NCBI RefSeq assembly: GCF_030052815.1
Contig: NC_079504.1
Coordinates: 56,981,502-57,045,501 of the forward strand
DNA from: Hevea brasiliensis
Lineage: Eukaryota > Streptophyta > Magnoliopsida > Malpighiales > Euphorbiaceae
Length of the DNA stretch: 64,000 nucleotides
Direction of reading: 5' to 3'
The position numbers and the translations under genes were made by a program. Shown here piece after piece: positions 678 to 50,840 of the stretch. The notes under the pieces were generated by a model. The model was given only the letters and a program-made list of their open reading frames with translations, did no database searches and had not been told where the DNA came from. Within the stretch, counting starts at the first letter, position 1. Each line of letters starts with the position of its first letter.

Positions 678-682
678 CTAAT
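678..682. repeat. Right copy of the presumed target duplication of H (CTAAT)
   Basis: The five bases after the LTR terminus are CTAAT. In uninterrupted family LTRs the matching site reads TTCTAATACTCCC (near 46830), so CTAAT belongs to the target. The left copy is outside the window. Confidence 0.5.
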
Positions 683-2623
683 TCTCCCAACATACCACAT
701 TTTGCATTCTAAAGTTGATGGTATTGGTTGCCAATACCATTTTTATGCTTAGTGTTAGTTATTCACAATTTTCAAATTTCAAGCATTATATTTACTATTC
801 CATTGGTCATTTCTACAGTAGGAATTTGGCAAAGTTGTCTTCATAAAAGTTGTTCCTTATTGTGTCTAGTTACATTTATTTTTTTGAATTAGTCCATTTG
901 GAGTTTTGTAGCTCAAGTTATGGCCTAAACACCATAACTGGCCGGATTGTAAATTTCCAGAATTTTCTGTACAGAACCAAATCTACAGTGTTTTGTACAC
1001 TGATTGCAAGTTAATTTTTGAACATGTTATCATCAAAATTTGGGTTTGAATTCTCCATAAAAGTTGTAGTTCTATGTCTCAGCTTTCTTCTAGTAAAATT
1101 TTAGGTCAATTGGACCTTTCTACACTGAGTTATGACCAAATGAATAGACACTGTTCATTTGGTCATTTTGCCCAGGTAGAATGCAAGTCACCCGGATTAG
1201 GGCAATTTTTAGGTCAACTTGTTTGGTTTTATGGGTAGGGTTTCTTCACCAAAGTTGTGCCATTATGTGTCTAGTTTCATTTCCAATTGGCCTTGTGCCA
1301 ATTGAACCTCTACAACTCTATTTATAGCTGCCCAAACCTGCTGGACTCACACCCAGTCCTGCAGGTCACCAAGGGCAGCATGACTAAGTTCCACTCCAAC
1401 ATCATTACTCACTTCAATTCCTCCTCACACACATTCAAATGGTCACTAATTGACCATTACAAGGTTAACATACCATTACATAAGCAAACCCTAATGTTAT
1501 TCAAATGTCCAAGTTCTCATGTTCATTCATGCACTATACTTGCATTTCACTTACACAATCATGTTCAAGCACTCATCTCATGCTATGGGTAGCTCGTAAA
1601 TACTTTACTTCAAGTAAATTCATCAAACCCTAACCACCCTAGGCTGTTGAAATTTATAAGGATGGATACACATGATTTTTATTTTGTTTTTCTTATATTT
1701 CCTACTTGTCTCATGGCATTAAGCATAAATCAACTAAAAGTGCTAAGAGATTGGACACTAACCTCTTTTCCTCACCCTTCCTAATCTCCAAAACTTCCTT
1801 CTTTCTTCTTCTTTTTGCTGGCTAGAGGTTGTTCAAGATGCAAGATCACTTTTTTGTGAAGCAAGGTAGTGGTTTCAAGGTGAGATGAGGTGAGGTTTGA
1901 AGCTTTCATTAAACTTCCATGGAGGAATGGGTTTGGGAAAGGGAAATGTCTGGTTTGGGGTGAAGAAGAGAAGATTGTGTTTTGTTAATTATTACCTCAT
2001 TTTACCTCTTTTTAATTGGTTTTTAATAGCTTATTTAAATGTAATTGGTGGGAGCACTTTTAATGACCTCATGGTGATGTCATAATTGACATTTTTCTTA
2101 TTTTCTTTTCCTTTCTTCTCTACTCATTTTCAATTTAATTTTTAGCAATATTTATTCATATTTTGTGTCATGATAATTATTTACTTAACTGGAAAAGTAG
2201 GCCAAAAATCACTTCTGAAGGCTAAATGACCAAAATGCCGTCCGTTTGGCTTAACAGACTAAAATTGTCTATACCGATTGAAAAATTTTTCTAAGCATTT
2301 TCTTGGCACTCTAATGCCATAGAAACCTCAATGACTTTTCTCTGGAGTCCCAAAAATTATTTTATGAATTTTCCCCTGGGTCTAGGGCTCCTAGTTGCGA
2401 GAACTGCAACTTCCCACTGAGTTACCCATCGATAGGGCACCGGGTCATTTAACTTGATTGTATTTTATTTCTAAAAGTTTTTCTAAATTTTTTTTATTAA
2501 TATATGAGTTAATTATGGTTCCTCACTTTAGTTTAAATATTTTCCAGACGTTCTAGCTATCCGGACTGACACCGGTCATCGGAACAGTAAAATGTACGGA
2601 GTTGCTACAGTGAGGGTGTTACA
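678..2623 (-). repeat. 3' LTR of element A, remainder after insertion of H
   Basis: It aligns along its length with 8694-10647 and ends at 2623 in GGTGTTACA, which is TGTAACACC on the sense strand, where the LTR begins. The other roughly 1.2 kb of this LTR lie left of the window, beyond H. Open frames here, such as 1287-1592, are antisense to the element and recur in the other LTR only because LTRs are duplicates. Confidence 0.85.
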
Positions 2624-2658: not shown

Positions 2659-4122
2659 TTAACCTGATGCAAACAGTTGAGGGAACTGTTGCCTCATCGT
2701 CTCTTCACTTTCCAAAGTTTCCTTCTCAGTGTTGTGGTGCCTCCAAAGCACTTTCACCAGTGGAATCTGCTTATTCCTCAACTTTTTCACTTCCTGAGCC
2801 AGGATCTGTATGGTTTCTTCTTCAAATGTGAAATCTGGTTGTACTTCAATTTCTTCCATGGAGATAACATGTGAAGGATCTGAGCGGTATTTTCTTAGCA
2901 TAGATATGTGGAACACATTGTTGATCTTGTTCAGCTCTGGTGGTAAAGCTAGCCTGTAGGCCACTGGACCCACACGTTCAATGATTGCATATGGGCCAAT
3001 GAACCTAGGGCTCAACTTACCTTTTCTTCCAAACCTTAGTACCTTCTTCCACGGTGATACCTTGAGGAACACTTTGTCGCCAACTGCATATTCTATTTCT
3101 TTTCTCTTCAGGTCGACATAGGATTTTTGTCTATTTGAGGCAACCTTCAAATTGGCTTTGATTAGTTTTACTTTCTCCTCAGTTTGTTTCACCAGGTCTG
3201 GCCCTACCAGTTTATCTTCACCCAATTCGGTTCAGCACACTGGAGTTCTACATTTCCTCCTATACAGTGCTTCATACGGGGCCATTTGGATGCTAGCTTG
3301 GTAGCTATTGTTGTATGCAAACTCTGCCAGTGGGAGGTATCTATCCCAACTTCCCTCAAACTCAATGACACAACTCCTCAGCATATCCTCAAGGACCTAA
3401 CATATATTTCATGTTATTATTATCATTTCAGTTCAATATTTGTATTAGTTCAATTGGTTTCAATTGTTTACCTGGATTACTCTTTCTGATTGCCCATCCA
3501 TCTGAGGATAGAATGCTGTGCTGAAGTGGAGTTGTGTACCCAAGGATTTATGTAATTTCTTCCAAAATCTCAATGTAAACCTTGGGTCTCGATCAGATAT
3601 GATGGAAAGTGGAATTCCATGCAGTCTAACTATCTCACTGATATACAATTCTACTAACTTTTACAGTGAGTAGTCAGTCATAGATGGCAGAAAATGTGCT
3701 GACTTCATCAATCTATCTACTATCACCCATACTGCATCATGCTTCTTCTGGGTGAGAGGTAGACCACTTACAAAATCCATGGTGACCCGATCCCATTTCC
3801 ATTCATGTATGCCTATTAGCTGTAGCAAACCCAATGGAACTTAATGTTCTGCCTTGACTTGCTAACATGTCAAGCATTTAGTCACATAGTCAGCTATGTC
3901 CTTCTTCATACCAGGCCACCAATACTGAAGCTTCAGATCATGATACATTTTTGTACTTCCTGGGTGCATAACATAAACACTGATGTGTGCCTCTTTCAGG
4001 ATACTGACTTTCAATTCCCCATCATCTGGTACACATACTCTTTCTTTGTAGTACAGACACCCATCTGCTTTCACCTTATAGTCAGTTGCTTTCCCCTCTG
4101 AGATTTTACTCACAGTACTCAT
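2659..4122 (-). pseudogene. Integrase of element A, broken, with chromodomain-like C-terminus
   Basis: Integrase joins element DNA to the host chromosome. The N-terminal zinc finger is at 4122-3862: two His in AHISVYVMHPG and the Cys pair CLTC. The core shows ISDRDPRF and GQSER, carrying the second Asp and the Glu, at 3648-3460. The C-terminal part at 3225-2659 includes GPVAYRLALPPEL and VFHISMLRKY, then a tail with VKVLWRHH and EETMRQQFPQLF that resembles the chromodomain-like end of Tekay integrases. Damage: stops just after CLTC where F has Gln codons, and a TGA at 3229-3231 for the Trp of a CWTELGE motif. An intron-like insert at 3397-3471 brings a stop unless it is removed. It follows RNase H in the same polyprotein. 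Confidence 0.85.
3397..3471 (-). other. 75-bp GT...AG intron-like insertion in the integrase of A
   Basis: Relative to F (near 41621), A carries 75 extra bases in the integrase core. On the sense strand the insert starts GTAAAC, ends ATGTTAG, is preceded by ATCCAG and followed by GTCCTTG. Removing it restores Q-V-L-E-D in frame (phase 0). Retained, it adds Val-Asn-Asn and a TGA stop at 3460-3462. It is about three quarters A+T. AGGT occurs at both junctions, so it could also be a 71-bp insertion with a 4-bp duplication. It contains repeats of an AATTGAA motif. Presence, termini and frame effect are seen; splicing is inferred. Confidence 0.6.
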
Positions 4123-6106: not shown

Positions 6107-7345
6107 CTAAGCTCTTATGGCATAGGCTCTGGCAGGTGCTCTGCCCTCAGGCCTCTCTACTGGCTCAGATGCAAGTCTCTGCGATGGTCCCACTACCTCA
6201 GATTTGCCAAATTTCCTACCCCTTTGTGGTGCAGGAGCAGGTCTATCCACTTGTGTTAGAGCAGCTGTAGCAGTTCTGTATGGACAGCTCTTTAACTGAT
6301 GCTCTGTTGACCTACACCTTAAGCAGGAACCCGTCAATCTCCAACACTCCCCCTTTTGCCACTTCAGGCAATGCAGACATGCAGAAGATGCTGGGGCTGG
6401 TCCCCTGAACTCCGTCCCTGGAGAGCTGCCCACTGATGGTGTGGACTGACCTCTCCTAGGGGTGAACTGTGGCCTGAGCCCCTAGGACTGACCCTGACCT
6501 TGTGGTTGACCTGAACTCTATGCAGGTGGACCTTTAAACTTTTTTCCTGGTGCAGGAGATGAGCTAGACTGACTCGAGCCCCTCTTCTGCTGTCTCTCCC
6601 TTCTAGTCTGCTCACTTATTCTAACCTTTTCAACTTTTATTGCAGCTTCCACTAACTTGGTAAAGTTTGTGATTCCCAAGGTAGTAATCATGATCTTTAT
6701 GTTGTTATTTAATCCCTCTTCAAATCTTTTACAGCTCTCGGCTTCATTAGGGACTATCTCCCTTTCATAATGACTCAGTCTGATAAATTCCTTTTCATAC
6801 TCTGCCACTGTCAACTGTCTCTGCCTCAGATTAATGAACTCTCTTCTTCTCTCTTCTAAGTATACACTACCCACATATTTCTTCTTGAATTCTAAGAGGA
6901 AGAAGTCCCAAGTTATTAATTCTGGTTGTACTTCGCTAGACACTGTATCCCACCATTGGTAGGTATCAACTTGCAGCAGAGATACAGCGGCTTCTAGATT
7001 TTGCTCTGGAGTGCAGTGGAGTTGTTTTAAAACCCTTCCTATTATGTTCAATCAGTTTTCGGCTACAACAGAATCATCTTCGCTCTTGCAAAAGAAATCC
7101 ACTGCTCCAAATTTTCCCAGTCTTTCTAGATGTGATTTTTGCTGTGGAGGTGGAGGTGGTGGTGGCATTACCTCAGCCATTTGTCTGAAGAACTCGGCCA
7201 TTTGCTAGAACATGGCCTGTGGAGGCTGAGCAGGCTCTGCTGGAGGTGGTGGGGCAGGTTCTCCCCTACCTCCAATCTTAGCTGCTGCAGGTGGAGCATG
7301 ACTCTCCACTTTCTCCTCAACTGCCCTCTGAGATGTGGGGTCCAT
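6107..7345 (-). pseudogene. Gag of element A, broken by stops
   Basis: Capsid/nucleocapsid polyprotein. I start it at the ATG at 7345 (MDPTSQRA), also present in F, 128 bases inside the 5' LTR boundary. A proline run (MPPPPPP) follows, then a retrotransposon gag domain with WWDTVSSE, EFKKKYVG and AEYEKEFIRLSHY. Two Cys/His knuckles are at 6379-6284: CLHCLKWQKGEC, where Gln replaces the His seen in F, and CLRCRSTEHQLKSC, a canonical CX2CX4HX4C. Stops fall at 7206, 6518-6520 (shared with F) and 6107-6109. The frame continues into protease. Confidence 0.85.
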
Positions 7346-7455: not shown

Positions 7456-7467
7456 ACTCTGATACCA
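7456..7467 (-). other. Primer binding site of element A (initiator tRNA-Met type)
   Basis: On the sense strand, five bases after the LTR end, the sequence reads TGGTATCAGAGT. This matches the complement of the 3' end of plant initiator tRNA-Met, TGGTATCAGAGC, except for the last base. It sets the minus orientation of the element. Confidence 0.85.
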
Positions 7468-8118
7468 CTAAATGTGATACCCCTTACCCGTCTACAGTAT
7501 AGCCGAGTAAGATATGTCACACAGTGTACCGAAACACCATATTTTATCTCAGTTATTTTTATCTTTCCTTATTTATTTTTTTTTTCATAGTTATAAGGTA
7601 CAATTTGTGGAATATCATTCATTTAAGTCATTTATTGAAACATAAATTCATTTGAGGTTCCGCAAATTTTATAAAAAATCCAGCAGAGTACCGGCTAAAA
7701 ATGGAGAAAACAGTTCTTCGAAACCTGTGAAAAACACTTTCAATATGTTTTCAATCATTCCGAAACTCCATTTTATCAACAAAATCTCAATATTTTTCAA
7801 CAACATTTTCATTTCTCATTCATTCATTTCACATGATATTCATATACAAGTCATAAATAAATATTCAATTTTTCATTCATAAACACAATTTTCACTATTT
7901 ACATTAATACAAAAATACATTACATAAGTCTCAATTACACATAAAAAATAAAAGTTAATTACAAAATACTAAAATAAAACCTAGTGTCCTACCAATGCAC
8001 TGAAGTCGATGAGGTGACACAGACACTATGCAGAGCTGCAGATGGTCTCACCCAGTCTGTGGTCTACTGGGCTCTCTATCGGTCTCTCCAGAACCTATAC
8101 GTGGCAAAAAGCCACGAG

Positions 8119-8136
8119 CTAAGCAATAATGCTTAG
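8119..8136 (-). promoter_or_regulatory. Conserved LTR hairpin (copy in A)
   Basis: The sequence CTAAGCAATAATGCTTAG has a perfect 7-bp stem and a 4-base loop. It lies about 650 bases from the LTR's 3' end. Equivalent hairpins occur in F (38341-38358, 46245-46262), D (54994-55011), C (21165-21181) and, with changed but pairing bases, E (35102-35121, 53898-53914). The role is unknown. Confidence 0.6.
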
Positions 8137-8470
8137 TGGTGCCAATAATAAAATAAAAAATTAACAAGAAATAAATATGCAGTGAATGTGTTGATGTCTT
8201 ATGCAGACAAATTTTCAATAATTATTTGTGGTCTTATTTATTTGGTACTTGTTATCTTCATTATTTCATTAAATTTATCAACTTTCATTTTTGGTTGCCA
8301 AGTAACCTATACTGGATGACTGGACTGGATAAATGAGTAAACTGGCACTGGGTATCAAGTACCTCGAGCCATCACACCATTGATCACATATGTATCTCCC
8401 GGTGTGCAACAGAAAGCTAATAAGCTATAATAACATTAGGCACAAGGCCAAGTATCATCACAATGTCAAA

Positions 8471-8523
8471 ATGGCTAAAAGCCATGAAATTACAGAATGG
8501 CATAATGCCATGTGCAGTACTGC
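8471..8523. repeat. Cluster of three short palindromes in the LTR of A
   Basis: In 53 bases there are ATGGCTAAAAGCCAT (8471-8485), ATGGCATAATGCCAT (8497-8511) and the perfect palindrome GCAGTACTGC (8514-8523). F repeats the cluster at 38686-38738 and at 46601-46641, the third member being mutated in the latter. D carries an expanded version at 55541-55680. Confidence 0.65.
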
Positions 8524-10647
8524 CAAGTGAACCCTATTGGTATGCCAACCTATCCAAACCAATCTTACAAGGTGTACTAGGGCATGTTACACTTTTAAAT
8601 TTTACAATTCTTGAAATTTAAGTTTAGGTGTTACTATTTATTTCATTAGTCAACTAAAATGTTGACTTTTGCATAGACAATAAGTACATTGGTTCTAATA
8701 ATCACAACATACCACATTTTGCATTCTAAAGTTATTGGTATTGGTTGACAACACCATTATTAAGCTTAGTGTTAACTAATTCACAATTTTCAGATTTCAA
8801 GCATTATATTTACTGTTCCATTGGTCATTTGTACAGTAGGAATTTGACAAAGTTGTCTTCATAAAAGTTGTTCCTTATTGTGTCTAGTTATATTTATTTT
8901 TTTAATCACTCCATTTGGAGTTTTTTAGCTCAAGTTATGGCCTAAAAACCATAACTGGCCGGATTGCAAATTTCCAAAATTTTCTGGATAGAACCAAATC
9001 TACAGTGTTTTGTGCACTGAATGCAAGTCAATTTTTGAACATGTTATGATCAAAATTTGGGTTTGATTTCTTCATGAAAGTTGTAGGTCTATGTCTCGGC
9101 TTTCTACTGGTAAAATTTCAGGTCAATTGGATCTTTCTACACTGAGTTATGACCAAATGAATAGACACTATTCATTTGGTCATTTTGCCCAGGCAGAATG
9201 CAAGTCACCCGGATTAGAGCAATTTTTAGGTCAACTTGGTTTGGTTTTCTGGGTAGGGTTTCTTCACCAAAGTTGTGCCACTATGTGTCTAGTTTCATGT
9301 CCAATTAGCCTTGCACCAATTAGACCTCTACAACTCCATTTATAGCTACCCAAACCTACTGGACTCGCACCCAGTCCTGCAGGTCACCAAGGGCAGCATG
9401 CCTAAGTTCCACTCCAACATCATTACTCACTTTATTTCCTCCTCACGCACATTCAAATGGTCACTAATTGATCATTACAAGGTTAACATATCATTACATG
9501 AGCAAACCCTAATGTTATTCAAATGTCTAAGTTCTTATGTTCATTCATGCACTATACTTGTATTTCACTTACACAATCATGTTCAAGCGCTCATCTCATG
9601 CTATGGGTAGCTCATAAACACTTTACTTCAAGTAAATTCATCAAACCCTAACCACCCCTAGGCTGCTGAAATTTATAGGGATGGATACACATAATTTTTA
9701 TTTTATTTTTCTTACATTTCCTACTTATCTCATGGCATTATGCATGAATCAAGTAAAAGTGCTAAGAGATTGGACACTAACCTCTTTTGCTCACTCTTCC
9801 AAGTCTCCAAAACTACCTTCTTTCTTCTTCTTTTTGCTGGCTAGAGGTTGTTCAAGATGCAAGATCACTTTTTTGTGAAGCATGGTAGTGGTTTCAAGGT
9901 GAGATGAGGTGAGGTTTGAAGCTTTCATTAATTAAGCTTCCATGGAGGAATGGGTTTGGGAAAGGGAAACGTCTGGTTTGAGGTGAGGAAGAGCATATTG
10001 TGCTTTGTTAATTTTTACCTCATTTTACCTCTTTTTAATTGATTTTTAATAGCATGTTCAAATGTGATTGGTGGGAGCACTTTTAATGACCTCATGGTGA
10101 TGTAAGAATTGACATTTTTCTCATTTTCTTTTCTTTTCTTCTCTACTCATTTTCAATTTAATTTTTAGTAATATTTATTCACATTTTGTGTCATGATAAT
10201 TATTTACTTAACTGGACAAGTCGGCCAAAAATCACCTCTGAAGGCGAAATGACCAAAATGCCCTCCGTTTGGCTTAACAGACTAAAATTGTCTGTACCGA
10301 TTGAAAAATTTTTTTAAGCATTTTCTTGGCATTCTAATGCTATAGAAACCTCAATGACTCTTCTCTGGAGTCCCAAAAATTATTTTATAAATTTTCTCTC
10401 GAGTTTAGGGCTTCTAGTTGCGAGAACCGCAACTTCCCACTGGGTTACCCATCGTTAGGGCACCGGCTCATTTAACTTGATTGTATTTTATTTCTAAAAT
10501 TTTTCCTAAATTTTTCTTATTAATATTTGAGTTAATTATAGTTCCTCACTTTAGTTTAAATATTTTTCTAGACGTTCTAACTGTCCGGACCAGCACCGGT
10601 CATCGGAACAATAGAATGTACGGAATTGTTACAGTGAAGGTGTTACA

Positions 10648-31067: not shown

Positions 31068-32434
31068 AGGCAATTAGAGATTGGCCAACACCTAAAAAAG
31101 CATCTGAAGTTAGGAGCTTTCATGGATTAGCAAGTTTTTATAGGAGATTTGTACCTAACTTTAGTTCATTGGCTGTTCCATTAAATGAACTTGTCAAAAA
31201 GAATGTGACATTTGTTTGGGGTAAAGAACATGAACATGCATTTCCCATGCTTAAAGAGAAATTGTGTTCTGCAGCTTTATTAATTTTGCCTAATTTTGAC
31301 AAGACATTTGAGATTGAATGTGATGCATCAGGTATAGGGATTGGAGCTGTTCTCATGTAAGAGAAACATCCAATTGCTTATTTTAGTGAAAAGTTGCATG
31401 GTGCCACATTGAATTATTCTACATATGGCAAAGAATTATATGCATTAGTTAGGGCATTAGAGACATGGCAATATTATCTATGGCCTAAGGAATTTGTCAT
31501 ACATTCTGATCATGAGTCTTTGAAGTATATCAAAAGCCAACATAAGTTGAGTAGGAGACATGCTAAATGGGTAGAATTTATAGAGTCTTTTCCTTATGTT
31601 GTGAAATATAAGCAGGGCAAAGAGAATGTGGTAGCTGATGCACTCTCCCGCAGGTATAATCTTCTTACTACTCTTGATTCTAAATTATTGGGATTTGAGT
31701 ATGTTAAAGAATTATATGAGTATGATGATGACTTTGCTGCCATATTCCATGCATGTGAGAAATCTGCATTCCAAAAGTACTTTAGGCATGATGGATATTT
31801 GTTTAAAGAAAATAGATTTTGTGCACCTAAAAGTTCTTTGAGGGAATTGCTTGTAAATGAGAGTCATAGTGGAGGCCTTATGGGCCATTTTGGTGCTGCC
31901 AAAACACTAGATGTCCTTAGGGAGCATTTCTTTTGGCCTCACATGAGAAAAGATGTTGAGAGACTATGTGCTAGATGTGAGACTTGTAAGAGAGAAAAGT
32001 CTAAGGTGATGCCTCATGGGCTATACACACCTTTACTCATGCCTAAGCATCCTTGGGTTGATTTATCCATGGACTTTGTCTTGGGATTGCCTAGGTCACA
32101 AAGGGGTCATGATTCAATTTTTGTTGTTGTGGATAGGTTTTCAAAAATGGCTCATTATATCCCATGTCACAAAAATGATGATGCTACATATGTTGCTAAT
32201 CTATTCTTTAGGGAGGTTGTTAGGTTACATGGTATACCTATAACCATTGTGAGTGATAGGGATGTCAAGTTCTTGAGTCATTTTTGGAAGGTTCTTTGGG
32301 GAAAATTGGGAACTAAGCTACTTTTCTCTACTACTTGCCATCCCCAAACTGATGGCCAAACAGAAGTAGTGAATAGGACCTTAGTCACACTTTTGAGAGC
32401 CTTAGTGAAACAAAATTTAAAGTCTTGGGAGTAA
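31068..32434 (+). pseudogene. RNase H and integrase core of element G
   Basis: After the frameshift the connection and RNase H continue: [13 protein letters not shown], then [38 protein letters not shown] and VVADALSRR, with the acidic residues in place. A TAA at 31358-31360 falls where a Gln is expected after VLM. Integrase has its zinc finger in [10 protein letters not shown] and CARCETC, and core residues in [19 protein letters not shown] and [15 protein letters not shown] at 32432-32434 cuts the core. Confidence 0.86.
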
Positions 32435-33247
32435 TACATACCATACATAGAATTTGCATATAATAGGGTTCTGCATTCATCTAGTGGATACTCTCCTTTT
32501 GAGCTTGTTAATGGTTTTAATCCACTTACTCCCTTGGATTTGTTACCATTGCCTATTGATCATGTTGCTTCATTGGATGGTGAGAAAAAGGTTGAAATGG
32601 TTAAAAAGATGCATGAACAAGCTAGGTTGCATCTAGAAAAGAAAAATGAGCAATATGCATCTCATGCTAATAAGGGGCGAAAGCCTATGATTTTTGAACT
32701 TGGTGACTTGGTATGGATCTATTTAAGAAAGGAAAGGTTTCCTAACCAAAGGAAATCTAAGTTGCTTCCTAGAAGTGATGGCCCTTTTCAAGTGCTTGAA
32801 AGAATTAACAATAATGCTTATAAGATAAAATTGCCTAGTGATTATGGTGTTAGTAATACTTTTAATGTAACTGATCTAACTCCTTTCCTTGGTGCAGAAA
32901 CAAATTCGAGGAAAAATTCTTTTCAAGTGGGAGAGGATGATGAGGATCATCATGGAGCACCACCACCCTTCAAAGGGGCAATCACTAGGGCGAGAGCTAA
33001 GCAACTTCAAAGTATGCTCAAGGACCATAAAAGGATTTTCAGCTTAGGAGGGGAGCTGCATAAGGAAGGCCTAGCTTGCTTGCTCCAAGAATCTAAGTGG
33101 ATCACCATGTGCCAAGTTGGAACTTCCATTGCCACATCACTAGCCACGTCAGATTCCATTGCCACTTCACCGACCACGTCACTAGCCACTTTAGACATGC
33201 CTCATGCCACCCTGGAGTCCACTTGGCAGCCACCTAGGTGTTTGTAG
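32435..33247 (+). pseudogene. Integrase C-terminus of element G, running into the 3' LTR
   Basis: The frame is open from 32435 to the TAG at 33245-33247. It holds GDLVWIYLRKERFP, NAYKIKLP and FNVTDLTPF, then passes through the polypurine tract and about 310 bases into the 3' LTR, encoding ITRARAKQLQ and a Ser/Thr/Ala-rich tail. CRM-clade integrases are known for a C-terminal motif partly encoded in the 3' LTR; the arrangement here fits that. The 5' LTR keeps the same tail open. Confidence 0.78.
32925..32937 (+). other. Polypurine tract of element G, inside the coding frame
   Basis: AAGTGGGAGAGGA directly precedes the LTR start TGATGAGG. It is translated as part of the integrase tail. Confidence 0.8.
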
Positions 33248-37703: not shown

Positions 37704-37708
37704 CCCAA
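37704..37708. repeat. Left target duplication of F (CCCAA)
   Basis: CCCAA is repeated exactly at 48760-48764. Confidence 0.9.
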
Positions 37709-40700
37709 TGTGACACCTCTTACCCGTCTACAGTGTAGCCGAGTAAGATATGCCACGTAGTGTACCAGAACACCCTATTTTAATTCAATCATTTTTATTC
37801 TTCCTAATTTATTTTCTTCATAGATATGAAGTACAATTTATGAAATATAAATCATTTAAGTCATTTATTAAAATTATAATTTATTTGAGGTTCCACAAAT
37901 TTTATAGAAAATCTGGCAGAGTGCTGGCTAAAAATGTATAAAACAGCTCTTCGAAACCTGTGAAAAACACTTTCAAAATTTTCAATCAATCCCAAACTCC
38001 ATTTCATCAACAAAATCTCAATATTTCTCCCATTTCTTATTCATTTATTTCATGTGATATTCATATAAGAGTCATAAATAAATATTCACTTTTTCATTCA
38101 TAAACACAATTTCCATTATTTACATCAATACCCAAAATACATTACATAAGTCTTAATTACACATGAGAAAATAAAAGTTAATTATAAAATATTAAAATAA
38201 AACCTAGTATCCTACCAATACGCTGATGACGGTGAGGTGACACAGACACTATGCAGAGCTGCAGAAGGACTCACCCAGTCTGTGGTCTACTGGCTCTTGG
38301 TCGGTCTGTACAGAACCTACGCGTGGCAAAAAGCAATGCGCTAAGCAATAATGCTTAGTTGTGCCAATAATAAAATAAAAAGAAATAACAGAAAATAAAT
38401 ATGCAATGCATGTCCTGCAGATAATTTTTCGATCATTATTAGTAATCTTATTTATTTTGTACTTGTTATATTCATAATTTCATTAAATTTATTCACTTTC
38501 ATTTTGGTTGCCCAAGCAACCTATACTGGATGACTGGACTAGATAAACGGATAAATTGGCACTAGATATCAAGTACCTCAGGCTGTCACACCATCGGTCA
38601 CATATGTATCTCCCGGTGTGCAACAGAACAACTAATAAGCTGTAATAACATTAGGCACAAGGCCAAGTATCAACACAATGTCAGAATGGCTAAAAGCCAT
38701 GAAATCGCAGAATGGCATAATGCCATGTGCAGTACTGCTAACTGAACCCTATTGACATGCCAACCTATCCAAACCAATCTTGCTAGGTGTATTAGGGCAT
38801 TTTATACTTTTAAATTTTATAATTCTTGAAATTTAAGTTTAGGTGTTACTACTCATTTCATTAGTCAACTAAAATGTTGACTTTTGCATAGACAATAGGT
38901 ACATTGGTTCAAATACTCCCAACATACCACATTTTGCATTCTAAAATTGTTAGTATTGGTTGCCAATACCATTTCTAAGCTTAGTGCTAGTTGTTCAAAA
39001 TTTTCAGATTTCAAGCCTTGTGTTTACTATTCCATTGGTTATTTTTACAGTAGGAATTTGGCAAAATTGTCTTCATGAAAGTTGTTCCTTATTTTGTCTA
39101 GTTACATTTCCTTTTTTGAATCACTCCATTTGGAGTTTTGCAACTCAAGTTAGGGCCTAAATACCATAACTGGCTGGATTGGACAGAATCCAATTATGGG
39201 CAAAACTAGTTCTGCCAGATTTGGTAACCTAAGTTTAGTTGGCAATTTGACTAGGTTATGGTCAGAATTTGGATTTGTGTTCTTCATGAAAGTTTTAGGT
39301 CTATGTCTTAACTTTCTTTTTGTAATATTTCAGGTCAATTGGACCTTTCTACACTGAGTTATGACCAAATGAATAAACACTGTTCATTTGGTCATTTTGC
39401 CCAGGCAGAATGAAAGTCACCCGGATTAAGGCAATTTTTAGGTTAACTTGGTTTGGTTTTCTGGGCAGGATTTCTTCACCAAAATTGTGGCATTATGTAT
39501 CTAGTTTCACCTCCAATTGGCCTTGCACCAATTGGAGCTACACAAGTTCAGTTAAGGCTCTCCAAACACACTGGACTCCAAGAGTCCAGACTGCAGCACA
39601 CAAGGCAGCCTACCCTTTCTAACATTCAATGACTCAATTCACTTCATATTCAGTTTAAAGCTTACCAAATGGTCACTATTTGACCATTAAAATGTTCCTA
39701 CAGCATTATAAGAGGTAAACCTCAATATGCTCAAAACCCGAAATTCTTAATTTCTCTATTCTTCTATTAACATACAATTTAATGTACGAAATGTTACATT
39801 CATATCAAGGGAAGCTTATATACTCATTTAATCCAAAAAAAATCATCAAGACCCTAATAAGTCCATGGCTGCTGAAATTTGTAAAAATTCAACCATGCAA
39901 AATTTATTTAAATTAGCTAAATTTCACTCTCAATTCATGTTCTCCATGATGTATACACAAAATAAATAAGATTAATTGGCACTAACCTCACTTTAACCAC
40001 TTCTTGCACTTGTAGAAACCTTGGAATTTCCTCACTTTTTGATAATCAAAATATTCCTCTTGATGTGGGGATAAATTTTAGTAAAGGGGCTTAGGGATTT
40101 TGGTGGATAGATAAAGAGAAAATGTGAGCTTAAAGCTTGAAAATTTGATAAAGAAAAATGGCCATGGAGATTCGGGGAAGAAGTTGAAGGTGAGCAGATT
40201 GCTTTTTCCTATTTTGACTTCTTTTCTCTTATTTAATGTCTTATAAATGTATTTGTTAAATTTTGATTGGCTAAGGGGTTTTAATTACATCAAGCTTATG
40301 TCATAAATGCCTTTTTATTTGATTTTTCTTTCTTCTTTCTTTAACTCATTTCTAATTAAATTTTTACCAATATTTATTCATTCTTTAGATCATAATAATT
40401 ATTTACTTAACTGAACAAGTTGGCCAAAAATCATCTCTAAAGTCAAAATGACCAAAATGCCCTCCGTTTGGCTTATTGAACCAAAATCATCTGTACTGAT
40501 TGAAAAAAAATTTTAAGTCTTTTCTTGGCATTCTAATGCCATAGAAACCTCTATGACTCTTCTCTGAAGTCTCAAAAATTATTTTATGAATTTTATCCCG
40601 GGTTTAGGGCTTCTAGTTGCGAGGACCGCAACTTCCCACTGGGTTACCCATCGCTAGGGCACCGACTCATTTAACTTGATTGTATTTTATTTCTAAAATT

Positions 40701-40846
40701 TTTCCTAAATTTTTCTTATTAATATTTGAGTTAATTATAATTCCTTACTTTAGTTTAAATATTTTTTCGGGCGTTCTAGCTATCCGAACCCACACTGGTC
40801 AACGGAACAGTAGAATATACGGAGTTGCTACAGGGAGGGTGTTACA
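37709..40846 (-). repeat. 3' LTR of element F
   Basis: On the plus strand it starts TGTGACACCTC and ends GGTGTTACA. The hairpin is perfect at 38341-38358 and the three palindromes are at 38686-38738. The open stretch 38960-39160 recurs at 46875-47075 only because the LTRs are copies. Confidence 0.88.
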
Positions 40847-40899: not shown

Positions 40900-42250
40900 T
40901 TGAGGGAACTATTGCCTCATCGTCTCTTCACTTTCCCAAGTTGCCTCTTCGGTGTTGTGGTGCCTCCAAAGTACTTTCATCAGTGGAATCTTCTTATTCC
41001 TCAACTCTTTCACTTCCCGAGCTAGGATCCATATGGGTTCTTCTTCATATGTCAAATCCGGTTATACTTCAATTTCTTCCATGGAGATGACATGTGAAGG
41101 ATTTGAGCGGTATCTTTTTAGCATAGATACGTGGAACACATCGTGGATCTTGTCCAGCTCTGGTGGTAAAGCTAGCTTGTAGGCCACTGGACCCATACGT
41201 TCAATGACTTCATATGGGCCAATGAACCTAGGGCTTAACTTACCTTTTCTTCCAAACCTCAGTACCTTCTTCCATGGTGACACCTTGAGGAACACTTTGT
41301 CGCCAACCGCATATTCTATTTCTTTTCTCTTCAGGTCGGCATAGGATTTCTGTCTGTCTAAGGCAACCTTCAGATTGGCTTTGATTAGTTTTACCTTCTC
41401 CTCAGTCTGTTTCACTAGGTCTAGGCCTACTAGTTTGTCTTCGCCCAATTCAGTCTAGCACACTGGAGTTCTACATTTCCTCCCATACAGTGCTTCATAC
41501 GGGGCCATTTGGATGCTAGCTTGGTAGCTATTGTTGTATGCAAATTCTGCCAGTGGGAGGTATCTATCCCAACTTGCCTCAAACTCAATGACACAACTCC
41601 TCAGCATATCCTCAAGGACCTAGATTACTCTTTCTGATTGCCCATCCATCTGAGGATGGAAAGCTGTGCTAAAGTGGAGTTGTGTACCTAAGGATTCATG
41701 CAACTTCTTTCAAAATCTCGATGTAAACCCTGGGTCTCGATCATATATGATGGAAAGTGGGATTCCATGCAGTTTAACTATCTAACTGATATACAATTCT
41801 GCTAACTTCTTTAGTGAGTAGTCAGTCCTAACTAGCAGAAAGTGTGCTGACTTTGTCAATCTATCTACTATCACTCATACTGCATCATGCTTCTTCTGGG
41901 TGAGAGGTAGACCACTTACAAAATCCATGGTGACCCAATCCCATTTCCATTCAGGTATGCGTATAGGCTGCAGCAAACCCAATGGAACTTGATGTTCTGC
42001 CTTGACTTGCTGGCATGTCAAGCATTTAGTCACATAGTCAGCTATGTCCTTTTTCATACCAGGGCACCAATACTAAAGATTCAGATCATGATACATTTTT
42101 GTACTTCCTGGGTGTATAGCATAAACACTGGTGTGTGCCTCTTTTAGAATACTGGCCTTCAATTCCCCATCATCTGGTACACATAATCTTTCTTTGTAGT
42201 ACAAACACTCATTTGTTATCACTTCATAGTCAGTTTCTTTCCCTTCTAGG
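40900..42250 (-). pseudogene. Integrase of element F, broken
   Basis: The zinc finger uses [11 protein letters not shown] and CLTCQQVKAEH; the latter is intact here, unlike in A. The first core Asp is in VTMDFVSGLP. The second Asp and the Glu lie in 41640-41760, which has further breaks. The C-terminal part at 41448-41062 has SPWKKVLRFGRKGKLSPRF and VFHVSMLKRY, then a decayed chromodomain-like tail. There is no intron-like insert: the sense sequence runs ATCTAGGTCCTTG near 41621, with its own TAG for the Gln codon. A TAG at about 41455 replaces the Trp of CWTELGE. Confidence 0.8.
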
Positions 42251-45607: not shown

Positions 45608-45612
45608 CTAAA

Positions 45613-48600
45613 TATGACACCCCTTACCTGTTTACAGTGTAGCCGAGTAAGATATGCCACGCAGTGTACCGGAACACCCTATTTAATATAATTATTTTTA
45701 TTCTTTCTAATTTATTTTTTTCATAGTTATGAAGTGCAATTTGTGAAATATAATTCATTTAAGTCATTTGTTGAAATTATAATTTATTTGAGATTTCGCA
45801 AATTTTATAGAAAATCCGGCAGAGTGCCGGTTAAAAATAAATAAAACAGTTCTTCAGAACCTGTGAAAAACACTTCCAAAATTTTCAATCAATCCCAAAC
45901 TCCATTTCATCAACAAAATCTCAATGTTTCTCCCATTTCTCATTCATTCATTTCATATGATATTCATATAAGAGTCATAAATAAATATTCACTTTTTCAT
46001 TCATAAACACAATTTCCATTATTTACATTAATACCCAAAATACATTACATAAGTCTTAATTATATATGAGAAAATAAAAGTTAATTACAAAATATCAAAA
46101 TAAAACCTAGTGTCCTACCAATGCACTGATGACGGTGAGGTGACACGGACACTATGCAGAGCTGCAGAAGGTCTCACCCAGTCTGTGGTCTACTGGGCTC
46201 TCGGTCGGTCTCTCTAGAACCTACGCGTGGCAAAAAGCAACGCCCTAAGCAATAATGCTTAGTGGTGCCAATAATAAAATAAAAAGAAATAACAGAAAAT
46301 AAATATGCAGTGCATGTCTTGATGTCTTATGCAGACAATTTTTCTATCATTATTAGTAATCTTATTTATTTTGTACTTGTTATATTCATAATTTCATTAA
46401 ATTTATTCACTTTCATTTTTGGTTGCCCAAGCAACCTATACTGGATGACTGGACTAGATAAACGGGTAAACTGGCACTGGGTATCAAGTATCTCGGGCCG
46501 TCACACCATCGATCACATATGTATCTCCCGGTGTGCAACAGAACAGCTAATAAGCTTTAATAACATTAGGCACAAGGCCAAGTATCAACACAATGTCAGA
46601 ATGGCTAAAAGCCATGAAATCACAGAATGGCATAATGCCATGTGCAGTACTACTAACTGAACCCTATTGGCATGCCAACCTATCCAAACTAATCTTGCTA
46701 GGTGTACTAGGACATGCTATACTTTTAAATTTTATAATTCTTGAAATTTAAGTTTAGGTGTTACTATTCATTTTATTAGTCAACTAAAATGTTGACTTTT
46801 GCATAGACAATAGGTACATTGGTTCTAATACTCCCAACATACCACATTTTGCATTCTAAAATTGTTGGTATTGGTTGCCAATACCATTTCTAAGCTTAGT
46901 GCTAGTTGTTCAAAATTTTCAGATTTTAAGCCTTGTGTTTACTGTTCCATTGGTCATCTTTACAGTAGGAATTTGGCAAAATTGTCTGCATGAAAGTTGT
47001 TCCTTATTTTGTCTAGTTACATTTCCTTTTTTGAATCACTATATTTTGAGTTTTTTAGCTCAAGTTATGGCCTAAACACCATAACTGGCCGGATTGGACA
47101 GAATCCAAAATTCTGGGCAAAACTGGTTCTGCCAGATTTGGTAACCTAAGTTTAGTTGGCAATTTGACTAGGTTATGGTCAGAATTTGGATTTGTGTTCC
47201 TCATGAAAGTTTTAGGTCTATGTCTCAGCTTTCTGCTGGTAACATTTCAGGTCAATTGGACCTTTCTACACTGAGTTATAATTAAATGAATAAACACTAT
47301 TTATTTGGTCATTTTGCCCAGGCAGAATTCAAGTCACCCGGATTAGGGCAATTTTTAGGTCAACTTGGTTTGGTTTCTGGGCAGGGTTTCTTCACCAAAA
47401 TTGTGGCATTATATATCTAGTTTCACCTCCAATTGGCCTTGCACCAATTAGAGCTACACAAGTTCAGTTAAGGCTCTCCAAACACACTGGACTCCAAGAG
47501 GCCGGACTGCGGCACACAAGGCAGCCTACCCTTTCTAACATTCAATGACTCAATTCACTTCATATTCAGTTTAAAGCTTACCAGATGGTCACTATTTGAC
47601 CATTAAAATGTTCCTACAGCATTATAAGAGGAAAACCTCAATTTGCTCAAAACCCTATATTCTTAATCTCTATTCTTCCATTAACATACAATTTAATGTA
47701 CTAAATGTTAAGTTCATATCAAGGGCAGCTTATATACTCATTTAATCCAAAAAAAATCATCAAGACCCTAATAAGTCCATGGCTGCTGAAATTTGTAAAA
47801 ATTCAACCATGCAAAATTTATTTAAATTAGCTAAATTTCACTCTCAATTCATGTTCTCCATGATGTATACACAAAATAAATAAGATTAATTGGCACTAAC
47901 CTCACTTTAACCACTTCTTGCACTTGTAGAAACTTTGGAATTTCCTCACTTTTTGATAATCAAAATATTCTTCTTGATGTGGGGATAAATTTTAGTAAAG
48001 GGGCTTAGGGATTTTGGTGGATAGATAAAGAGAAAATGCAAGCTTAAAGCTTGAAAATTTGATGAAGAAAAATGGCCATGGATATTCGGGGAAGAAGTTG
48101 AAGGTGAGCAGATTGCTTTTTCCTATTTTGACTTCTTTTCTCTTATTTAATGTCTTATAAATGTATTTGTTAAATTTTTATTGGCTAAGGGGTTTTAATT
48201 ACATCAAGCTTATGTCATAAATGCATTTTTATTTGATTTTTCTTTCTTCTTTCTTTAACTCATTTGTAATTAAATTTTTACCAATATTTATTCATATTTT
48301 ATATTATAATAATTATTTACTTAACTGAACAAGTCGGCCAAAAATATCTCTGAAGACGAAATGACTAAAATGCCCTCCATTTGGCTTATTGAGCCAAAAT
48401 CGTCTGTACCGATCGAAAAAAATTTTTAAGCCTTTTGTTGGCATTCTAATGCCATAGAAACCTCTATGACTCTTCTCTGGAGTCCCAAAAATTATTTTAT
48501 GAATTTTTTCCTGAGTTTAGGGCTTCTAGTTGTGAGGACCGTAACTTTCCACTGGGTTACCCATCGCTAGGGCACCGGCTCATTTAACTTGGTTGTATTT

Positions 48601-48759
48601 AATTTGTAAAATTTTTCCTAAATTTTTCTTATTAATATTTGAGTTAATTATAATTCCTCACTTTAGTTTAAATATTTTTTCGGACGTTTTAGCTGTCTGG
48701 ACCCACACTGGTCACCGGAACAGTAGAATGTACGGAGTTGCTACAGGGAGGGTGTTACA
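45613..48759 (-). repeat. 5' LTR of element F
   Basis: It begins TATGACACCCC, with the terminal TG changed to TA, and ends GGTGTTACA. The hairpin is at 46245-46262 and palindromes at 46601-46641. It is followed by CCCAA. Confidence 0.88.
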
Positions 48760-50150: not shown

Positions 50151-50840
50151 ACTCCTTTGTCTATGGTACATGAGTTGAGAGTATTATATGCCAGCTTAGA
50201 AATTAATGATGAGGGGCAAACAGCAGTTGCATGGCATGTACAGCCAATGTTGATTCATCAGATCAGAATGGCTGCACAGAATGATCAGAAGTATCAGAAG
50301 CTGTTAGAAGAAGTCAGACAGGGCAAGAAATCTAAACTCTCAGTGAGAGATGATGGCCTACTACTTCACTAGGGTAGAATGTGTGTTCCTAATGACGTTG
50401 ACTTGAGACAGATTATTTTGAAGGAAGCACATGAGTCTCCTTTTGCTATGCACCCTGGTGGCACAAAAATGTATGGAGAGCTAAAGGAGCATTACTGGTG
50501 GATGGGTATGAAAAGAGATGTGGCAGAATTTGTTTCCAAATGCCTAACTTGTCAGCAAGTGAAGGTAGAGCATCAAGTACCAGCTGGTTTGTTGCATCCA
50601 CTACCAGTACCGGAATGGAAATGGGAGAGAATAACTATGGATTTTGTAATGGGCCTTCCGAGGACACAGAAGAGTCATGATGTAGTATGGGTTATAGTTG
50701 ATAGACTGACCAAGTCTGCTCATTTTGTGCCAGTACGGATGGACTATAGCCTGGAAAGATTGGCCAAGTTGTACATTAATGAGATAGTAAGACTGCATGG
50801 AGTGCCAGTATCCATCGTATCAGACAGAGATTCTAAGTTC
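50151..50840 (+). pseudogene. Integrase of element E, truncated in the catalytic core
   Basis: The zinc finger is present (AHESPFAMHPGG, then CLTCQQVKVEHQ), as are ITMDFVMGLP with the first Asp, VDRLTKSAHFVPVR, and VSDRDSKF with the second Asp. There the coding stops at 50840 and LTR sequence starts at 50841. The catalytic Glu, the C-terminal domain and a polypurine tract are missing. A TAG at about 50370 precedes the zinc finger. Confidence 0.85.

Follow-up and report, generated by a model that had tools for sequence, protein, structure and literature searches.

A short intron-like insert in the integrase of an abundant rubber tree retrotransposon family, and its repeated exact absence

A 75-nt insert interrupts the integrase of an LTR retrotransposon, element A, in a window of 64,000 nucleotides of the rubber tree genome (Hevea brasiliensis, NC_079504.1, positions 56,981,502 to 57,045,501; positions below are counted within this window). 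The insert is very probably a short spliceosomal intron of the U2 type. It would have been gained once in a Del/Tekay-like element, would be retained in most of the genomic RNA, and would be lost when spliced RNA is reverse transcribed. The original prediction had proposed an intron on the basis of A and of a related element, F. This reading is now strongly supported by genome-wide DNA evidence, namely the copy counts, the exactness of the absence, the GT–AG ends and the tree of the copies. The features of both elements are collected in Table 1.

Table 1. Coordinates of features of elements A and F in the window
Feature	Position	Strand	Remarks
5' LTR of element A	7473..10647	(-)	92.6% identity between 8695-10647 and 678-2623
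3' LTR of element A, directly oriented part	678..2623	(-)	
TGGTATCAGAG, presumed primer-binding-site motif, adjoining the 5' LTR of A	7457..7467	(-)	
gag of element A	6518..7051	(-)	PF03732
Intron-like insert in the integrase of element A	3397..3471	(-)	75 nt; donor CAG/GTAAAC, acceptor TGTTAG/G
Upstream integrase exon examined (3'-most 143 codons, with the DDE core)	3472..3900	(-)	
Downstream integrase exon: core end, SH3-like domain (PF24626) and chromodomain-like tail, up to the stop codon	2659..3396	(-)	
Empty site of element F	41619..41620	(-)	Read as an exact intron loss

On the sense strand, the insert starts with GT and ends with AG. Its A+T content is 79%, as compared with 60% for positions 3200–3600 (insert included). 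In the integrase frame of A, it is preceded by GTAATCCAG and followed by GTCCTTGAGG, and the two exons join in phase 0 (SERVIQ/VLEDML). The length, the GT and AG ends, the AT-richness and the phase had all been predicted, and all were borne out. So was the stop expected from a retained insert, which is read through as VNN before a stop codon. The codon at 3484–3486, the fifth before the insert, is the one that we take to encode the catalytic Glu of the DDE motif. The donor GTAAAC is a good, imperfect match, and CAG/G is an ordinary splice context according to the consensus. The AGGT repeat claimed for both junctions is real and exact in A. Folding of the insert RNA gave two small hairpins (z = −2.1), one of which, judged by eye, is broken in other subtypes.

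Element F is without the insert. The original prediction that removal of the insert restores the reading frame as in F was right about the frame, which is intact across the F junction at 41620/41619, yet the junction codon of F is itself an in-frame stop. The description of the insert as absent from a sister element was likewise correct for F, but it was misleading: thousands of copies are filled at the same site, and F represents the minority form.

The counts were obtained from the 1.88-Gb rubber tree assembly. Exact short flanks were required on both sides, which makes the counts lower bounds. The flanks were separated by 0 nt in 473 copies, by 1–30 nt in none, by 31–60 nt in 12 and by 61–91 nt in 5332; reversed-pattern controls yielded zero. 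As 5332 of the 5817 flank-matched copies (92%) are filled, the insert is the normal state, and its exact absence is the sole common alternative within the 0–91 nt searched. The 12 copies with 31–60 nt have lost part of the insert, in several different ways. When the insert sequence itself was used for searching, 1314 first-look candidates were obtained, and the best 40, which were scored, were all 99–100% identical. Twenty-eight of these 40 (A included) were fetched, and every one carried the insert at the same integrase site. The same search in prokaryote genomes and viral contigs gave no match. A private microinsertion in A, which had been the plain alternative, is ruled out by these candidates together with the 5332 filled copies: the insert clearly does occur outside A, and thousands of copies carry it at one and the same site.

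One group of filled copies deserves separate mention. Five close relatives (L007–L011) lie within approximately 104 kb (C2: 60.81–60.92 Mb) and form one clade (100/99), an arrangement that suggests local duplication rather than retrotransposition.

The splice-site dinucleotides are kept across the family. Among the 100 filled places listed, the exon is followed by GT in 98 and by GTAAA in 95, and two are without GT. Twenty-one inserts (L059–L079) were picked by hand from these 100 for subtype spread, and all of them start with GT and end with AG. The end is TGTCAG in 15, TGTTAG in five and TGGTAG in one; in the 15 with TGTCAG, the repeat at the junctions becomes CAGGT. Seventeen inserts have 75 nt, three have 74 nt and one has 86 nt. 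The 86-nt insert (L060) contains an extra run of TAA-like units and keeps both GT and AG. If the insert is retained, the reading frame first meets a stop at codon 4 in 19 of the 21 inserts and at codon 7 in the remaining two. YTRAY is taken as a branch-point motif. It was seen about 48 nt before the acceptor in 18 of the 21 inserts (the exceptions being L071, L072 and L079), as an unscored match found by eye and not a proven branch point.

The interior of the insert has drifted like non-coding sequence. Among 19 copies, the insert diverged by 0.116 per site, which equals the pace of third codon positions in the flanking exons (0.119) and is about twice that of first and second positions (0.056). 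The distances between inserts were correlated with the distances between flanks in 19 copies (Mantel r = 0.41, p = 0.011). The correlation was 0.42 (p = 0.006) for the downstream flank, and 0.30 (p = 0.054) for the upstream flank alone.

The exact absence of the insert in other copies apparently arose by many separate losses. In a first tree (53 of 59 rows), five empty copies, including F, were placed between filled ones. A larger tree, from which the insert columns were excluded, was calculated from 1140 flank columns of 94 of 100 rows (six short rows were dropped). It contains 49 empty and 45 filled copies, the latter comprising A itself, 25 copies chosen by insert similarity to A and 19 from the flank-defined list; relative to the filled copies, the empty ones are heavily over-sampled. 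At least 18 changes of state are needed on this tree, as compared with 17–19 on the bootstrap trees and a mean of 31.6 after shuffling; seven are forced by well-supported branches alone. F is the sister of a filled copy (support 96/88), and a single empty clade was rejected (lnL −270, AU p = 0.00014). Trees of the flanks alone (FastTree) gave 17 changes for the left flank and 20 for the right. The 94-row tree is weak in places, with 38 of its 91 branches open and the bootstrap not fully settled, and recombination between co-packaged RNAs could add state changes to it.

Intronless copies can multiply too, because the empty copies cluster. The nearest row of an empty copy was another empty one in 39 of the 49 cases and a filled one in 10, and some empty copies form clades of their own. 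Two further calculations were set aside. A tree built from the central 200 columns was too weak (24 changes; after shuffling, the mean was 31.3 and the lowest value 23). The sister copy L100 is too distant to provide a reliable root (first inner branch 67/74), and the 29 losses obtained in this way, which hold for the best tree under the assumption of a single gain, were not relied on.

Exact loss may also be sought in processes other than splicing. The insert could be an inert insertion inherited within the family, removed exactly by slippage of the reverse transcriptase or by DNA deletion between the bounding CAGGT repeats. The junctions of the main family share 4–5 nt, and slippage across them gives the same product as splicing. 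With such an origin, most members of the family would have a truncated integrase, and we consider this origin unlikely. GT and AG persist while the interior drifts, and this includes a second subfamily, in which AG is all that the junctions have in common. No partial loss with 1–30 nt left was found. The flanks of A offer 111 direct 5-mer pairs at a spacing of 40–120, yet deletions in the flanks are scarce: in the 1140 columns of the 94 copies, five of at least 12 bp were detected, each in a single copy. Two of them overlap but differ in their ends, and in no case was the same pair of ends seen twice. We also examined the linkage between the empty state and the flank alleles. The mean r2 over all rows was 0.034 within 60 bp of the site and 0.021–0.092 further out; the corresponding values were 0.020 and 0.014–0.024 for a 68-row set (49 empty and 19 flank-listed filled copies). 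Because flank deletions are rare and non-recurrent and linkage does not rise near the site, neither repeat slippage nor a local exchange that spreads a single empty haplotype appears to explain the exact losses well, whereas reverse transcription of spliced RNA would.

The flat linkage profile also speaks against the proposal that the empty state is ancestral and that an insert of single origin was shuffled among lineages by recombination of co-packaged RNAs, with no need for repeated loss. Retroelement RNAs recombine, the sister copy L100 is empty, and the predominance of empty copies as nearest rows of empty ones is in line with shuffling. Nonetheless, the left-flank and right-flank trees each demand many changes by themselves, the insert distances track the flank distances, and we regard this proposal as very improbable. 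An introner or a MITE-like piece, as a small mobile element with many insertion sites, would account for an A+T-rich sequence of about 75 nt bounded by AGGT, which resembles a target duplication. The 28 copies fetched by insert sequence nevertheless share one integrase site, and no long terminal inverted repeats were noticed in an inspection by eye; we give a mobile element a very low probability. An intron lost through spliced RNA is thus the reading that we prefer.

More distant relatives bear on the age of the gain. According to the original prediction, the intron had been gained by insertion in A. The insert instead appears to be older than the sampled copies, and F would have lost it. The second subfamily (L102–L104) has an intron at the same site. 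L102 is 82–89% identical to the integrase pieces of A, and the intron of this subfamily is identical to four main-family introns at 53–56 of 72 aligned bases. GT and AG are kept in all three copies. This subfamily is multi-copy as well, with 1362 candidates, the best 40 of which were scored at 99–100%. The sister copy L100, with 71–73% amino acid identity to the integrase pieces of A, has no intron; it reads GATTCAG/GTACTTGAG and carries CAGGT at the site. The simplest explanation would be that the intron was gained once, when L100-like elements had already diverged but the two subfamilies had not yet separated. The intronless state of L100 could be an old loss.

Variation in the downstream exon points to purifying selection on the C-terminal part of the integrase during the history of the family. 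In the 45 filled copies, the downstream variants common to at least four copies comprised 64 synonymous and 34 nonsynonymous changes and 3 stops, whereas the singletons comprised 54 synonymous and 147 nonsynonymous changes and 8 stops (Fisher p = 3e-10, stops left out). Downstream variants exclusive to filled copies (at least three copies) showed no synonymous excess, with 7 synonymous and 14 nonsynonymous changes and 2 stops; 3 synonymous and 3 nonsynonymous changes were left after removal of C-to-T and G-to-A. These private variants were too few and unsupportive, and an argument for selection from them was abandoned. As the filled-only variants lack a synonymous excess, the argument for selection draws on variants shared with empty copies. 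In the sampled rows, the empty copies had fewer stops per copy (0.67+0.39) than the filled ones (1.24+0.93), and both flanks were stop-free in 17 of 49 empty copies as compared with 6 of 45 filled copies, which indicates that the empty copies are less decayed. For these two reasons, the exon variants taken alone are no proof of selection in lineages made up only of intron-bearing copies. When the sister C-terminus was used as a protein query, 142 of the 150 scored places had an open frame of at most 310 aa. These include the filled copies L101 (257) and L102 (253), and also the empty, stop-bearing L100 (218); short open frames seem only suggestive as a sign of filled copies.

Element A carries PF03732 (gag) and PF24626 (a Tf2-like SH3 integrase C-terminus), so that this feature of Del/Tekay chromoviruses is present. 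Both domains are also found in other Ty3/gypsy lineages. PF00385 (chromodomain) was detected in the C-termini of several near relatives, and the exon of A itself gave no PF00385 match at E 0.001. Judged from the relatives of the C-terminal integrase and from the published make-up of Hevea, the family of A is probably a Del/Tekay chromovirus family (Ty3/gypsy). In passages of PMC7353026, Del/Tekay accounts for 9129 of 11,989 RT domains in Hevea, and its spread is dated to 2–10 million years ago. The chromoviruses described there probably belong to the same lineage as the family of A, and these passages mention no intron in the element.

The LTRs of F (37707–40846 and 45611–48759) are about 3.15 kb long and 94.0% identical. 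Because the LTR identities are 92.6% for A (direct part) and 94.0% for F, neither insertion looks very recent. At 677/678, the 3' LTR of A (678–2623) is joined to a stretch (1–677) that resembles, in inverted orientation, the terminal part of the 5' LTR (7473–8149; 86.5%). This stretch is due either to an inversion within the LTR or to a second element of opposite direction. Two further integrase sequences were found in the window on the plus strand. The piece at 50517–50840 belongs to a related element (68% amino acid identity to A), and its match stops short of the intron site; a pol-like stretch beside it matches F at 72%. The sequence at 31952–32887 is a distant Ty3/gypsy integrase (43% and 28% amino acid identity in two pieces) that spans the site without an insert.

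From this record we infer splicing in the RNA, retention of the intron in genomic RNA, and control of the integrase output by splicing. A single gain would have taken place in an ancestor of the present rubber tree family, just behind the catalytic Glu. Because most copies keep the intron, the RNA that is reverse transcribed should be mostly unspliced; packaged genomic RNA would usually keep the intron, which would lead to the approximately 92% of filled copies among those with intact flanks. With the intron kept, its stop codons would end Gag-Pol a few residues past the catalytic Glu, and with the intron spliced out, a full integrase with the SH3 domain and the chromodomain-like tail would be produced. 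One transcript would then serve as the genome and as the source of the bulk proteins, and the spliced minority would be the source of integrase. Occasional reverse transcription of spliced RNA would create an exact intronless copy, such as F, and some of these copies would found small intronless lineages. As a tentative extension, regulated intron retention might act as a built-in switch. One RNA would be both the genome and the message for a Gag-Pol whose integrase is cut short, and the chromodomain integrase would come from spliced RNA only. The 473 empty copies might then be viewed as a natural retrotransposition-indicator record of the frequency with which spliced instead of unspliced RNA was reverse transcribed during the lifetime of the family.

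Comparable arrangements are known in other LTR elements. Splicing has been shown experimentally for Ogre (Ty3/gypsy, Tat lineage), whereas it is predicted from DNA for the rubber tree insert. The Ogre-type intron lies between GAG-PROT and RT; the rubber tree insert, in contrast, has 75 nt and is located inside the integrase of a chromovirus-type family, just behind the catalytic Glu. In the Ty1-copia element EVADE of Arabidopsis, as in our proposal, spliced and unspliced RNAs of one element have different uses, according to passages of PMC8892269. The difference is that splicing of EVADE gives a short GAG (shGAG) mRNA and the unspliced RNA codes for GAG-POL, whereas here the unspliced RNA would lack the full integrase and splicing would restore it. 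For the Ty3/gypsy-related Cer1 of C. elegans, passages of PMC10309623 likewise describe an unspliced genomic RNA with working splice sites that must exit the nucleus, but there splicing yields a separate regulatory protein, an export factor (cerv mRNA). Plant LTR elements lack introns as a rule, and passages of a review single out Ogre and EVADE as notable departures from it (PMC12786077). Among the matches listed in the open-licence literature, titles and abstract beginnings described no intron in a chromovirus integrase or in a Hevea retrotransposon. We rate the intron of an LTR retrotransposon as known in kind, and its place and the very large natural record of exact losses as new.

Elements that are copied through RNA should not hold on to introns, since every template that has been spliced erases them. 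In the family of A, which is very common in the rubber tree, thousands of copies keep an intron-like sequence. As the erased copies can be counted, the loss of introns by reverse transcription, a process mostly deduced from individual host genes, may become measurable in nature. The family would also offer a testable case in which splicing sets the amount of integrase of an LTR element.
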